In this document: piece by piece, positions 21,687-48,346 of the stretch | How the letters are laid out: the number at the start of each line of letters is the position of its first letter | Numbering within the stretch: position 1 is the stretch's first letter | From: Burkholderia sp. BCC0322 | GTDB lineage: Bacteria; Pseudomonadota; Gammaproteobacteria; Burkholderiales; Burkholderiaceae | Direction of reading: 5' to 3' | DNA: 64,000 nt | NCBI RefSeq assembly: GCF_902833045.1 | Contig: NZ_CADFDU010000014.1 | Location: 62,001 to 126,000 of the forward strand | Notes under the pieces: model-generated | What the model saw: the letters and a program-made list of their open reading frames with translations, nothing else | Told to the model about the DNA's origin: nothing | Database searches by the model: none | Made by a program: the position numbers and the translations under genes

Positions 21687-22142
21687 TCATGCGGCCGGCA
21701 GCGCCTTGCCGAACGAGATGCGTTCCTCGACTCGATAGCCGAGCGCCGCGTAGAAGCGGCACGCATCGTCGTTGCCGGGCAGCACCTGAAGATTGATCTT
21801 CAGGCAGCCGCGCGCGGCGAGCGCGCGTTCCGCATGCGCGATCAGTGCGCGGCCGATGCCGAGCCGCCGCGCGTCGTTCGATACGCCGAACGAGTAGAGC
21901 CAGCCGCGATGCCCGTCGAAACCCGCCATCAGCGTGCCGACCACGCGTGCGCCGCTGGTCGCGACGAAGAACAGTTCCGGCTGCGTCGCGAGCTTCAGCT
22001 CGATGGATCGCAGCGGATTGCGGTGCGGTGGCGCGTCGGCGTCTTCGTACTGCGGGAACGCGTCGCGCCATACCGCGAGCACGGCATCGGTGTCGGCGCG
22101 TTCGAACGGGCGGATGGCGACAGCATCGGCGGCGGCATGCAT
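21687..22142 (-). CDS. GNAT-family N-acetyltransferase (YpeA-like)
   Basis: Acetyl-CoA-dependent acetyltransferase of 151 residues. It begins IRPFERADTDAVLAVWRDAFP after a short N-terminus. The acetyl-CoA loop is SNDARRLGIGRALIAHAE (a Q/RxxGxG/A variant), and LKINLQVLPGNDDACRFYAALGY is typical of the YpeA subgroup. The substrate is unknown. It lies 13 bp downstream of the argD-like gene and is probably cotranscribed with it. Confidence 0.88.
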   Translation of the reverse strand: MHAAADAVAIRPFERADTDAVLAVWRDAFPQYEDADAPPHRNPLRSIELKLATQPELFFVATSGARVVGTLMAGFDGHRGWLYSFGVSNDARRLGIGRALIAHAERALAARGCLKINLQVLPGNDDACRFYAALGYRVEERISFGKALPAA

Positions 22143-22155
22143 CGGCGGGCTCTCC

Positions 22156-23340
22156 TTAGAGCGTGTCGAGGACCGACCGCAGCATCGCCATCATCTGGTC
22201 GATTTCCTCGGTCGTCACGTTCAGTGCGGGCATGAAGCGCAGCAGGTTCGGCCGCGCGGCGTTCAGCAGCAGGCCGTCGGGCTGCATGTCGCGCGCCTTC
22301 TCGACGATCTGCGGGCCGATGTCCTTGCCGAGCAGCAGCGCGCGCAGCAGGCCTTCGCCGCGTTCGCCTTCGAAGCCACGCTCTTCCGACAGCTCGAGCA
22401 GCTTGCGTTTCAGGTATTCGCTGCGCGCACGCACACCTTCGAGGAAGCCCGGTGCGACGAGCTGCGAGATCACCGAATAGCCGACCGCCGTCATCAGCGG
22501 GTTGCCGTTGTACGTGCCGCCCTGGTCGCCGGCCTCGAACACCGCGACCTCGGCCTTCGACAGAAGCGCGCCGAGCGGGGCGCCGCCGCCGATGCCTTTC
22601 GCGAGCGTCATGACGTCCGGCTCGATGCCGGACAGCTCGTACGCGAACAGCGTGCCCGCCCGGCCGCAGCCGCTTTGCACTTCGTCGACGATCAGCAGCA
22701 GGTTGTGCTGCTTCGTCAGTGCGCGCAGCGCCTGCATGAATTCACGCGTGGCGGGAATCACGCCCCCTTCACCCTGGATCGGCTCGAGCATCACCGCGAC
22801 GGTCTTGTCGGTGATCAACTTCTCGACCGAGTTGATGTCGTTCAGCTCGGCCTTCGGGAAGCCCGGCACCTGGGGTGCGTAGATCGTGTCCCAGCCCGGC
22901 TTGCCGCTGGCCGACATCGTCGCGAGCGTGCGGCCGTGGAAGCTGTGGTCGAACGTGATGATCTCGTACGCGCCGTTCTTGAACTTGCGGCCCCACTTGC
23001 GTGCGAGCTTGATCGCGCCTTCGTTCGCTTCCGCGCCGCTGTTCGTGAAGAACACCTTGTCGAACACGCTGTGCTGCGTGAGCAGGCCCGCGAGCTTCGC
23101 CATCGGTTCGTTGTAGAACGCGGGCGACGGGTTCAGCAGCTTTTCCGCCTGCGTCTTCAGCGCTTCGACGATGCCTTCGTTGCAGTGGCCGAGGCTGTTG
23201 ACGGCCCAGCCCTGGATGAAGTCCAGATAGCGCTTGCCCGTGTGATCGTAGAGCCACGAACCCTTTCCGTGCGTAAACACGATGTCGGGGCGGTTCGTGA
23301 TGTACATCAGCGAGTCGATCGGATAATCGTTCAGGGGCAT
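22156..23340 (-). CDS. argD: Acetylornithine aminotransferase-type class III aminotransferase
   Basis: PLP-dependent aminotransferase of 394 residues, probably converting N-acetylglutamate semialdehyde to N-acetylornithine in arginine synthesis. Motifs include FTNSGAEANEGAIKLARKWG (PLP phosphate region), TFDHSFHGRTLATMSASG, AVMLEPIQGEGG, LLLIVDEVQSGCGRAG and the PLP lysine in MTLAKGIGGGAPLGA. Related enzymes act on succinylornithine or 4-aminobutyrate, so identity rests partly on context: the 5' leader encodes an arginine-rich peptide followed by a terminator. Start at 23340, with GGAG 9 bases upstream. Confidence 0.85.
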   Translation of the reverse strand: MPLNDYPIDSLMYITNRPDIVFTHGKGSWLYDHTGKRYLDFIQGWAVNSLGHCNEGIVEALKTQAEKLLNPSPAFYNEPMAKLAGLLTQHSVFDKVFFTNSGAEANEGAIKLARKWGRKFKNGAYEIITFDHSFHGRTLATMSASGKPGWDTIYAPQVPGFPKAELNDINSVEKLITDKTVAVMLEPIQGEGGVIPATREFMQALRALTKQHNLLLIVDEVQSGCGRAGTLFAYELSGIEPDVMTLAKGIGGGAPLGALLSKAEVAVFEAGDQGGTYNGNPLMTAVGYSVISQLVAPGFLEGVRARSEYLKRKLLELSEERGFEGERGEGLLRALLLGKDIGPQIVEKARDMQPDGLLLNAARPNLLRFMPALNVTTEEIDQMMAMLRSVLDTL

Positions 23341-23380
23341 GGCGGCAGACTCCAGCGGAGGGTGGACGGAAACGGGCAAT

Positions 23381-23404
23381 AAAAAAGCCACGGAAGGCCG
23401 TGGC
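23381..23404 (-). terminator. Intrinsic terminator in the leader of the argD-like gene (candidate attenuator)
   Basis: GCCACGG (23387-23393) and CCGTGGC (23398-23404) form a 7-bp stem with a 4-base loop. On the minus strand it is followed by six T residues (23386-23381). It ends 40 bp before the argD-like start codon and 47 bp after the leader-peptide stop. Confidence 0.85.
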
Positions 23405-23424
23405 TGGTGGGTCGAACAGCTTGT

Positions 23425-23456
23425 GCGTAACCGATGAAGCAGTGTGGGGGTTACGC
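23425..23456 (-). promoter_or_regulatory. Dyad overlapping the leader-peptide stop codon
   Basis: GCGTAACC (23425-23432) and GGTTACGC (23449-23456) are perfect 8-base complements separated by 16 bases. The right arm contains the leader ORF stop (TAA, complement at 23451-23453). A ribosome finishing the leader would therefore cover one arm, as expected for a pause hairpin. Confidence 0.6.
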
Positions 23457-23534
23457 GCGAGTCCGTGACGAGCCTGCGGCATCCGGGCGGAGCGGCGAGC
23501 GGCGACGTCGAAGGGCGGACAGGAAGCAGTTCAT
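23451..23534 (-). CDS. Putative arginine-rich leader peptide of the argD-like gene
   Basis: A 27-codon ORF in the 5' leader. It begins MNCFLSALRRRRSPLRP and ends DAAGSSRTRA. Seven of 27 residues are arginine, four of them consecutive (CGA CGT CGC CGC), and CGA is rare in GC-rich Burkholderia. A possible earlier in-frame ATG lies 12 bases upstream. No Shine-Dalgarno sequence is seen and the predicted transcription start is adjacent to the ATG, so translation may be leaderless. Position, composition and the downstream terminator suggest ribosome-mediated attenuation by arginyl-tRNA supply. This is inferred, with no homology support available to me. Confidence 0.55.
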   Translation of the reverse strand: MNCFLSALRRRRSPLRPDAAGSSRTRA

Positions 23535-23541
23535 GTGCGCA

Positions 23542-23571
23542 AGCATAAGGCATCCCGCGCCTCACTGTAAA
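23542..23571 (-). promoter_or_regulatory. Putative sigma-70 promoter of the argD-like leader
   Basis: On the minus strand TTTACA (complement of 23566-23571) and TATGCT (complement of 23542-23547) are separated by 18 bp. The transcript would start around 23535, at the leader ATG. Confidence 0.5.
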
Positions 23572-23632: not shown

Positions 23633-24664
23633 TTAGACCGGATGGGCGAGATCGGCGGCGCTCGTAAACGAGTCCGCGTAGAACTCGTCGGCGGGCAGCG
23701 CGTGGTGTTGCGTGAAATCGCGCTGCGCGGATTCGACCATCACCGGCGCGCCGCATGCATACACCTGGTGGCCCGACAGATCGGGCAGGTCCTCGATCAC
23801 CGCGCGATGGACGAAGCCGGTGCGGCCCGTCCACTGGTCGCCGGCGTCCGGCTCGGAGAGCACCGGCACGTACTTGAAGTTCGGGATCTCGCGCGCCCAC
23901 TGCTCGGCGAGCTCGCCGAGGTAGATGTCCTTCTTGCGGCGTGCGCCCCAGTAGAGGGTCATCGGGCGTGTGATGCCCGTGTGCTTCACGTGCTCGATGA
24001 TCGCCTTGATCGGCGCGAAGCCCGTGCCCGATGCGAGCAGCACGATCGGCTTGTCGGAATCCTCGCGCAGGAAGAACGTGCCGAGCGGGCCTTCGAAGCG
24101 CAGGATGTCGCGCTCCTTCATCGCGCCGAACACGTGGTCGGTGAACTTGCCGCCCGGCATGTGGCGGATGTGCAGCTCGATCGGGCCTTCCTCGTGCGGC
24201 GCGTTCGCCATCGAGTAGCTGCGGCGCGAGCCGTCCTTCAGGATGAACTCGACGTACTGGCCGGCGAGATACTGCAGGCGTTCGTTGGCGGGCAACTGGA
24301 GCTTCACGACCATCACGTCGTCGGCCTTGCGCTCGAGTGCGGCGATCCGGCACGGCAGCTTCTTGACCTGCACGCCGTCGACGCCGGCGATTTCGCGCAC
24401 GTCGATCTCGAGATCGCACTGCGCCTTCGAGCAGCACAGCAGCGCGAGGCCGCGCGTGCGCTCGTCGTTGGACAGTGCCGACGCGGCGTGGGGGCCCTGT
24501 TCGATCTGGCCCGACACGATCTGGCCCTTGCAGGAGCCGCACGCGCCGTTCTTGCAGCCGTACGGCAGGTGGACGTTCTGGCGCAGCGCAGCGGCCAGCA
24601 CGGTTTCGTCCGACTCGACCTGGAATTGCCGGCCGCTTTGCTTGAGAGTGACGTTGAATGCCAT
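23633..24664 (-). CDS. 2Fe-2S ferredoxin / FAD / NAD(P)H oxidoreductase (CDP-6-deoxy-glucoseen reductase-like)
   Basis: Single-chain electron-transfer reductase of 343 residues. The N-terminal plant-type ferredoxin domain binds a [2Fe-2S] cluster (PYGCKNGACGSCKGQIV, with a later Cys in LLCCSKAQ). Then comes an FAD domain with RSYSMANAP, and an NAD(P) domain with LLASGTGFAPIKAI and a C-terminal VYACGAPVMVESAQ. Architecture matches the AscD/DdhD and phenol-hydroxylase-reductase families. No partner oxygenase or dehydratase is adjacent, so its physiological electron acceptor is unclear. It is 98 bp from the argD leader promoter and divergent from an epimerase gene. Confidence 0.88.
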   Translation of the reverse strand: MAFNVTLKQSGRQFQVESDETVLAAALRQNVHLPYGCKNGACGSCKGQIVSGQIEQGPHAASALSNDERTRGLALLCCSKAQCDLEIDVREIAGVDGVQVKKLPCRIAALERKADDVMVVKLQLPANERLQYLAGQYVEFILKDGSRRSYSMANAPHEEGPIELHIRHMPGGKFTDHVFGAMKERDILRFEGPLGTFFLREDSDKPIVLLASGTGFAPIKAIIEHVKHTGITRPMTLYWGARRKKDIYLGELAEQWAREIPNFKYVPVLSEPDAGDQWTGRTGFVHRAVIEDLPDLSGHQVYACGAPVMVESAQRDFTQHHALPADEFYADSFTSAADLAHPV

Positions 24665-47387: not shown

Positions 47388-47431
47388 ATATTATTTGTCG
47401 CTTACTAAGTTGTTTTCCGAATGAATAACGC

Positions 47432-48346
47432 ATGGCTGATCCGACGCCCGACCTGCGCCAGTGGCGCTATTTCGTGACCGTCGCCGACGAGCGTCATTTC
47501 GGCCGCGCGGCCGAACGCCTGTCGATGACGCAGCCGCCGCTGTCACAGGCGATCCGTGCGCTCGAGGATGCGCTCGGCGTCGCGCTGTTCGCGCGCACCA
47601 AGCGCTCGGTGGCGCTGACCGCGGTCGGGGCGGCGCTGCTGCCCGACGTGCGCCGGCTGCTTGCATCGGCCGATGCGTTGCCGCCGCTTGCGCGACGGCT
47701 CGCGCGCGGCGAGGCCGGCTCGCTGTCGCTCGCGTTCGTGTCGACCGCCGATTACGGGCTGCTGCCTGCGCTGCTGCGCGCATTCGGCGCGCGCTATCCG
47801 CAGGTGCGGCTGCAACTCGCGGAGGCGACGAGCGACGTGCAGATCGACGAACTCGTCGCGGGCCACATCGACGCGGGGCTCGTCATTCCGCCCGTGCCGC
47901 CACGCCACGCGGCCGGGCTGTCGTACCTGCCCGTCGTGCGCGAGCCGTTGGTGGTGGCGATGCCGGCCGCGGCGAGCGATGCGCCGGAAGACGAGCCCGT
48001 CCGTCTCGCCGAGATCGCCGCGTTGCCGCTCGTGATCTTTCCGCGTCGTTTGGCGCCCGGCTTTTATGACATCATTACGGGCTGCTACGGCGCGGCGGGG
48101 GAAACTCCGCACATCGGCCAGGAGGCGATCCAGATGCAGACGATCGTCAGCCTCGTGTCGGCCGGCATGGGCGTCGCACTGGTGCCGCAATCGCTGCGTA
48201 ACCTGCGGCGCACCGGCGTGGTCTACCGGCCGCTCGCCGGTCACGCGCCGGTCGTCGAGACGGGCCTCGTGTGGCGCACCGGCGACGTGAGCCCCGTGCT
48301 GGCCGGCTTCATCGACGTCGTGCGCGCGCACGCCCTCGTCACGTGA
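47432..48346 (+). CDS. LysR-family transcriptional regulator divergent from ilvD
   Basis: Regulator of 304 residues. The HTH reads DERHFGRAAERLSMTQPPLS, followed by QAIRALEDALGVALFARTKR. The effector domain contains SLVSAGMGVALVPQSLRNL, characteristic of the CatR/BenM/IlvY-type group. Divergent orientation and the palindrome between the genes make ilvD the likely target, by analogy with IlvY-type regulators. Confidence 0.9.
   Translation: MADPTPDLRQWRYFVTVADERHFGRAAERLSMTQPPLSQAIRALEDALGVALFARTKRSVALTAVGAALLPDVRRLLASADALPPLARRLARGEAGSLSLAFVSTADYGLLPALLRAFGARYPQVRLQLAEATSDVQIDELVAGHIDAGLVIPPVPPRHAAGLSYLPVVREPLVVAMPAAASDAPEDEPVRLAEIAALPLVIFPRRLAPGFYDIITGCYGAAGETPHIGQEAIQMQTIVSLVSAGMGVALVPQSLRNLRRTGVVYRPLAGHAPVVETGLVWRTGDVSPVLAGFIDVVRAHALVT

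Follow-up and report, generated by a model that had tools for sequence, protein, structure and literature searches.

On the minus strand of the window (the whole stretch of DNA that was analysed, 64 kb), a leader region lies between a ferredoxin-type reductase gene and argD, and argD is followed by a GNAT acetyltransferase gene. The features were placed as follows, from upstream to downstream, and the RNA elements among them are putative.

24664-23633, minus strand: ferredoxin-type reductase gene, upstream of the leader and on the same strand as argD.
23542..23571, minus strand: sigma-70-like promoter TTTACA-18-TATGCT (TTTACA at 23571-23566, TATGCT at 23547-23542).
23381..23548, minus strand: match to the whole model of Rfam RF02884, BcKCsr7 (163.7 bits, gathering 59).
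23451..23534, minus strand: leader peptide ORF MNCFLSALRRRRSPLRPDAAGSSRTRA, 27 codons and a stop (ATG at 23534-23532, stop at 23453-23451).
23499..23510, minus strand: control codons CGA CGU CGC CGC (CGACGTCGCCGC), codons 9-12 of the leader ORF.
23471..23480, minus strand: antiterminator segment (region 2) GCCGCAGGCU, complementary to the terminator 5' arm AGCCACGGC.
23449..23470, minus strand: 5' arm of an inner helix that lies inside the antiterminator and across the leader stop codon.
23413..23432, minus strand: 3' arm of the inner helix.
23386..23405, minus strand: intrinsic terminator hairpin AGCCACGG-CCTT-CCGTGGCT, with its 5' arm (23405-23398) as region 3.
23381..23386, minus strand: terminator run of six U.
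22156..23340, minus strand: argD, acetylornithine transaminase, the proposed regulated gene (NF002985 (PRK03715), 815.7 bits, cut-off 568).
21687..22142, minus strand: GNAT acetyltransferase gene (NF002959 (PRK03624)), starting 13 bp behind argD.

The leader ATG lies 7 nt downstream of the -10 and opens an ORF with seven Arg codons, in which codons for the end-product amino acid are clustered. A dyad, GCGTAACC (23456-23449) with GGTTACGC (23432-23425), spans the leader stop codon. The intrinsic terminator sits between the leader ORF and argD, its 3' arm including the start of the U run reads CCGUGGCU, and 40 bp separate its end from the argD ATG (23340). The preliminary description had given the same promoter, 27-codon ORF with seven Arg, dyad, terminator and 40-bp gap, and each of these was recovered. 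The gene downstream of the leader (argD, NF002985) makes the amino acid that the leader would sense, and the GNAT gene is probably co-transcribed with argD and hence would fall under the same putative attenuator.

The segment 22000-25000 was scanned on both strands for promoters, and a single promoter-like site was found, ahead of the leader ORF (0.2 expected from shuffles). Terminator-like patterns on their own occurred at the chance rate (2 seen vs. 2.2 expected in the scan of that segment); promoter, leader ORF and terminator as a combination are above chance. A leader scan (TAnnnT 6-9 nt ahead of an ATG, ORF of 9-45 codons, RR) returned 2 matches in the entire window, the argD leader and one at 47420, and 3 matches in 126 kb of argF, argG and argC loci. 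The match at 47420-47476 (plus strand) consists of an ORF with two adjacent Arg codons, preceded by a -10-like box; it shares sequence with the beginning of a lysR-type gene that stands opposite an ilvD-like gene. It was regarded as chance, as was an Rfam sbcD match at 23761-23571 (E 0.72). No CGACG leader was found in 10 argF and 10 argG loci (one of them, L360, ends upstream at a contig end). The RR-scan matches at L345 (argF) and at L372 and L376 (argC search, in which the family cut-off was passed in 4/10 genomes) were taken as chance, as none opens with CGACG.

RF02884 is typed 'Gene; sRNA' in Rfam and is not catalogued there as an attenuator; in its structure line the terminator folds on itself, and an antiterminator is absent. 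The review PMC10987360 treats Bc_KC_sr7, nc5U30 and RIT34 as one RNA, mapped in B. cenocepacia J2315 to 2967641-2967787 of chromosome 1 (147 nt), and reports that its expression was verified in strain KC-01 of B. cenocepacia. Short transcripts from 82 5'UTRs, arising via processing or attenuation, are given by Sass et al. 2017 (PMC5688073), and nc5U30 would, going by its name, belong to this short-5'UTR class. In B. cenocepacia NCTC13227 the stretch that opens with the leader AUG and closes with the terminator stem measures 147 nt, the same as the RIT34 length, where the published 3' end is assumed to be the stem end and J2315 to equal NCTC13227. RF02884 was above cut-off in 37/37 genomes of the genus, with one match each. 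Across the family, 121/200 genomes had a match at E<=0.001, 82 above cut-off, and a few weak matches sit away from argD.

At the RF02884 loci fetched (a subset of the matches), argD was present in 126/126, with ArgD identity of at least 69% over the aligned part of the first 200 residues at all 126. Leader and terminator were seen in 124/126 of these regions, with the leader ATG 167-267 nt ahead of argD. Rfam and the Burkholderia sRNA papers file the sequence as a trans-acting small RNA, for which the proximity of argD would be incidental. This is very unlikely: the Rfam typing and the expression in KC-01 speak for it, whereas the constant argD neighbour, the single match per genome throughout the genus and an in-frame Arg run with a matching antiterminator (below) speak against it, and an additional trans product would be compatible with all of them.

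To remove the bias of an RNA-based search, argD orthologues were used as a second query and the upstream DNA was read. Leader and terminator were found in 23/40 family regions fetched by argD alone, which represent some, not all, of the family genomes without an RF02884 match at argD, and in 21/47 argD-fetched regions from other families of the order. Under a strict criterion (TAnnnT 5-9 nt before ATG, 9-45 codons, RR; CGA not required) the leader was called in 150/181 regions. Under a relaxed criterion (CGACG and terminator required) the element was called in 175/226 argD regions and was missing from 51/226, the negatives including L121 (ambiguous base in the start codon), L126 (broken leader) and L179 (contig end). 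Sixteen loci were dropped from both sets for low ArgD identity (<50% for the 226-region set, <60% for the set of 181 out of 197). Six genomes are counted twice among the 226 regions and related species are abundant in the sets, and this relatedness inflates all comparative statistics of the leader analysis. A pattern scan gave 99 stretches, and all 80 among the matches listed are named Burkholderia or Paraburkholderia; a terminator of the same type lay within 230 nt of the leader ATG at 96/99 of these loci (terminator not required). The leader is present in Paraburkholderia xenovorans LB400 (L268), one of the species in which control of arginine synthesis can be tested directly. When 632 kb from the 80 named loci were put through the leader scan, the argD leader was returned in 80/80, which had been fetched by it, together with 5 other matches.

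The element is absent in some Paraburkholderia argD regions. Two of these (L177, L178) are from 4.1-Mb genomes, smaller and of leader-bearing genera, and have no leader; another of these smaller genomes (L126, 4.2 Mb) has a broken leader and an intact terminator. At eight loci, from several genera (L165, L166, L169, L170, L172, L173, L195, L196) argD lies almost directly behind the reductase gene, and leader and terminator are absent. In lineages of this arrangement, the element was either lost or originally absent.

In the preliminary description ArgR was taken as the default control of arginine synthesis, which does not fit this family: PF01316 was found in 0/100 family genomes and 0/100 order genomes, with 9/14 control genomes positive. 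This agrees with PMC5343134, according to which groups of gammaproteobacteria have kept ArgR, whereas it is missing from other classes. With PF01316 absent among the relatives' genomes examined, the locus does not qualify as part of an ArgR regulon. Because ArgR is absent in these family and order genomes, the attenuator may be what controls argD in its place, not an oddity beside a repressor.

The reading frame of the leader was assessed blind, by taking the promoter-proximal ATG and the nearest CGACG with frame ignored. The distance between them was divisible by three in 87/87 distinct leaders, at six values (18, 21, 24, 27, 30 or 39 nt), and a pair of this kind was met in 1/226 regions in the reverse-strand control. 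This result indicates that the leader ORF is translated. The ORF is considered coding because of the frame test, as the substitution figures alone show no coding signal: variable leader sites were evenly spread over codon positions (81/73/85), and purifying selection on the leader peptide was not found (synonymous share 0.33 in frame vs. 0.31 and 0.26 out of frame, p 0.14).

The first Arg codon of the run was CGA in 150/150 strict leaders, most of them fetched via RF02884, whose consensus contains CGACG, and in 23/23 strict family leaders fetched by argD alone; the second was CGU or CGC. Conservation of the Arg codons among relatives, put forward earlier as a check on the attenuator, thus holds in this comparison. 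CGA is rare locally (3/118 Arg codons in seven genes of the window), and CGACG may be conserved partly as an RNA sequence, through pairing, rather than as codons.

Leader peptides as called were 15 to 37 residues long. Across genera the peptide drifts, with little kept beyond the Arg run, as had been anticipated for the remaining leader codons; within Burkholderia its sequence is nearly fixed. Drift around a fixed Arg run points to a sensor of codons, and away from a small protein under conservation or an arrest peptide. An arrest peptide, of which fungal AAP and SpeFL are examples, would sense arginine or a related metabolite in the ribosome tunnel instead of codon starvation. It would draw on the Arg-rich sequence, the conserved start and the near fixity within Burkholderia, but we give it hardly any credence in view of the variable length, the lack of codon-position bias in the substitutions and the retention of mainly the Arg run across genera.

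Three further observations were made on the leaders. In four distant ones (L238, L230, L053, L056) a second Arg cluster stands near the stop codon, over or beside the antiterminator segment. A CUCC...GGA-type complementarity between the Arg run and the antiterminator segment is present at 23510-23471 and in many other leaders. Many leaders also have a proline codon a few codons after the Arg run.

The -10-to-ATG spacing was 6-9 nt in the 150 strict leaders (7 nt in 112), where the search criterion already demanded 5-9 nt; this spacing and the 147-nt B. cenocepacia transcript are compatible with a transcription start at the AUG. Because the -10-to-AUG distance is short, there is no room for a Shine-Dalgarno site. 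The leader mRNA is probably leaderless, with its AUG at or beside the transcription start.

At this locus the leader block GCCGCNGGCU pairs with the terminator 5' arm AGCCACGGC, and the region 2 pairing would be closed over the inner helix that contains the stop-codon dyad; taken alone, the region 2 / 5' arm pairing here is modest (p 0.23 vs. shuffles). At several distant loci both sides have changed and still match: GUGCGGCC with GGCCGCAC or GGCCGCAU (L054, L231), CUCGUGCGCC with GGCCACGAG (L058), and CCGUGGC with GCCACGG (L060). Pairing was compared over 35 non-redundant leaders, differing by at least 20%. Pairing with the leader's own terminator 5' arm beat the shuffle mean in 32/35 (Wilcoxon 2e-8; 9 individually p<=0.05), and 0/20,000 random leader-arm pairings reached the observed pairing sum, by duplex and permutation tests that are blind to the tree and are not tree-aware covariation. 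The comparison supports an antiterminator exclusive with the terminator. The antiterminator of the preliminary description had UCACGG pair with CCGUGG of the terminator 3' arm; the existence of an antiterminator is upheld, but that pairing was rejected as the main one (24/35 above shuffle means, Wilcoxon 6e-4, 2 with p<=0.05). The stop-codon dyad is likewise present, as the top of the inner helix nested in the antiterminator, but its sequence is not common to all genera. The inner helix, the arms of which differ among genera, was discarded as a universal element and retained as a Burkholderia-type part only.

The same hairpin bears on two other explanations. Under Rho- or translation-level control via the leader ORF, the intrinsic hairpin would be secondary; in Salmonella speF, a pair of adjacent Arg codons lets orf34 read arginine, and the response involves termination by Rho and decay of the mRNA (PMC6386406). 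Such control is most improbable here, as hairpin and U run accompany the leader in 175 regions (where required) and at 96/99 loci (where not required), and the hairpin arm matches the leader. That the hairpin is the terminator of the reductase gene and the ORF a product of chance is scarcely conceivable: the reductase gene lies on the same strand, with its end at 23633, and argD directly follows the reductase in some leader-free lineages, but a promoter-like site lies between that gene and the hairpin, the ORF, CGA-first run and frame recur across many genera, and a leader segment matches its own terminator arm.

For the fold switch, nascent RNA was folded as far as the terminator loop with a ribosome-sized stretch masked (footprint edges assumed at 12-15 nt back and 12-13 nt forward). 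P(antiterminator) was scored as region 2 or the adjacent leader stretch paired with the terminator arm. A ribosome on the Arg run gave a predicted P(antiterminator) >0.5 in 35/35 leaders, the mean of 0.83 exceeding the 0.57 of shuffled sequences (p 7e-10). For a ribosome at the stop codon the predicted mean was 0.48 (<0.5 in 17/35), and with no ribosome 0.49. The predicted values for this locus were 0.84 stalled, 0.18 at the stop and 0.04 without a ribosome. When the ribosome was walked along the leader, the modelled mean peaked on the Arg run or the codons directly after it (0.74-0.79), was 0.60-0.77 before the run, stayed high until ~6 codons past the first run codon and was 0.41-0.59 from 7 codons after the run start (run vs. 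later positions: 30/35 leaders, p 3e-8). At this locus, a ribosome at codons 1-7, before the run, gave a predicted 0.64-0.73. The folding model separates the Arg run from later, not from earlier, ribosome positions. Modelled switching went the wrong way in three leaders (L082, L171, L239) and was small or nil in five (L231, L054, L241, L174, L053). In silico, ribosome position would decide the fold at this locus and on average, and the effect is weak or absent in some leaders.

Very probably, argD is controlled here by a transcription attenuator of the ribosome-mediated type, with charged tRNA-Arg as the signal. The reading draws on the anatomy, the wide conservation, the reading frame, the match of region 2 to its own terminator arm and the predicted fold switch. 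The preliminary description had suggested that argD has an attenuator with Arg codons, whose ORF begins at or beside the transcription start, and the comparative data favour this.

In the mechanism that we infer, leaderless initiation, ribosome stalling and a response to arginine would be combined. The first transcribed nucleotide would be the A of the leader AUG or one adjacent to it; ribosomes would thus read the leader as a leaderless mRNA behind the advancing RNA polymerase. With Arg-tRNA scarce, the ribosome would stall on CGA CGU CGC CGC, the whole of which is presumably decoded by one tRNA-Arg(ICG). The stall would free region 2 to pair with the terminator 5' arm (in Burkholderia closed over the inner helix), and with the antiterminator formed, polymerase would read into argD. 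With arginine sufficient, the ribosome would reach the stop codon and cover or displace the antiterminator, and the terminator would form; with no ribosome nearby, the upstream leader would hold region 2 and the terminator would again form. Termination would release an RNA of ~150 nt, which would be the recorded 'sRNA'. A wider proposal, possible but doubtful, is that the leaderless Arg attenuator is the ancestral argD switch in ArgR-less Burkholderiales, with the invariant rare CGA as a stall trap for a single tRNA-Arg, and with the terminated RNA and the peptide (BcKCsr7) carrying the arginine signal in trans.

The trp, his, leu, ilv, thr and phe attenuators of Proteobacteria have control codons, antiterminator/terminator alternatives and a downstream gene for the same amino acid. 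The argD leader resembles them in its control codons, putative alternative folds and own-amino-acid gene, and differs as an Arg member, on argD, with a -10-to-AUG distance that leaves no room for Shine-Dalgarno. A precedent for the leaderless start is the Sinorhizobium meliloti trp attenuator (rnTrpL / peTrpL), where the leader RNA begins at the ORF AUG (PMC7298713) and, as proposed here, the terminated leader is an sRNA with a biosynthetic gene downstream; unlike the argD leader, rnTrpL senses Trp, belongs to Alphaproteobacteria, and has trans functions shown for RNA and peptide. Salmonella speF orf34 likewise reads arginine supply by consecutive Arg codons in a leader ORF (PMC6386406), but it belongs to gammaproteobacteria and controls an ornithine decarboxylase gene, through Rho, decay of the RNA and access to the RBS. 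The cysS uORFC-8-2 motif of Rhodobacterales is, as described in PMC8632094, a predicted ribosome-mediated attenuator with tandem control codons and a terminator, but with Cys codons, a tRNA synthetase gene and an alphaproteobacterial host. In S. aureus rbfL, Arg codons of a leader peptide sense arginine restriction (PMC13009471), but what is controlled is how a regulator is translated, via RBS occlusion, and not how an arginine gene is transcribed. Rfam RF02884 BcKCsr7 is the same sequence, and differs in its sRNA annotation and in a structure that lacks the antiterminator. The kind of attenuator is classical. What is new is that it would serve arginine, that it is widespread among bacteria lacking ArgR, and that its mRNA is probably leaderless.

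No report of an argD or arginine transcription attenuator was found by searches of the open-access PMC literature, and term searches returned no mention of argD in the main text of PMC2965389, PMC4035088 and PMC5719362. On that literature, the putative attenuator adds arginine to the amino acids with terminator-type attenuation of their own biosynthesis. It most likely accounts for the Rfam sRNA family RF02884 and for the recorded short B. cenocepacia transcript, and among leader peptides that are probably leaderless it is a clear example of one conserved across many genera. For ArgR-less bacteria, it would partly answer how arginine synthesis is controlled, and it makes that question directly testable.
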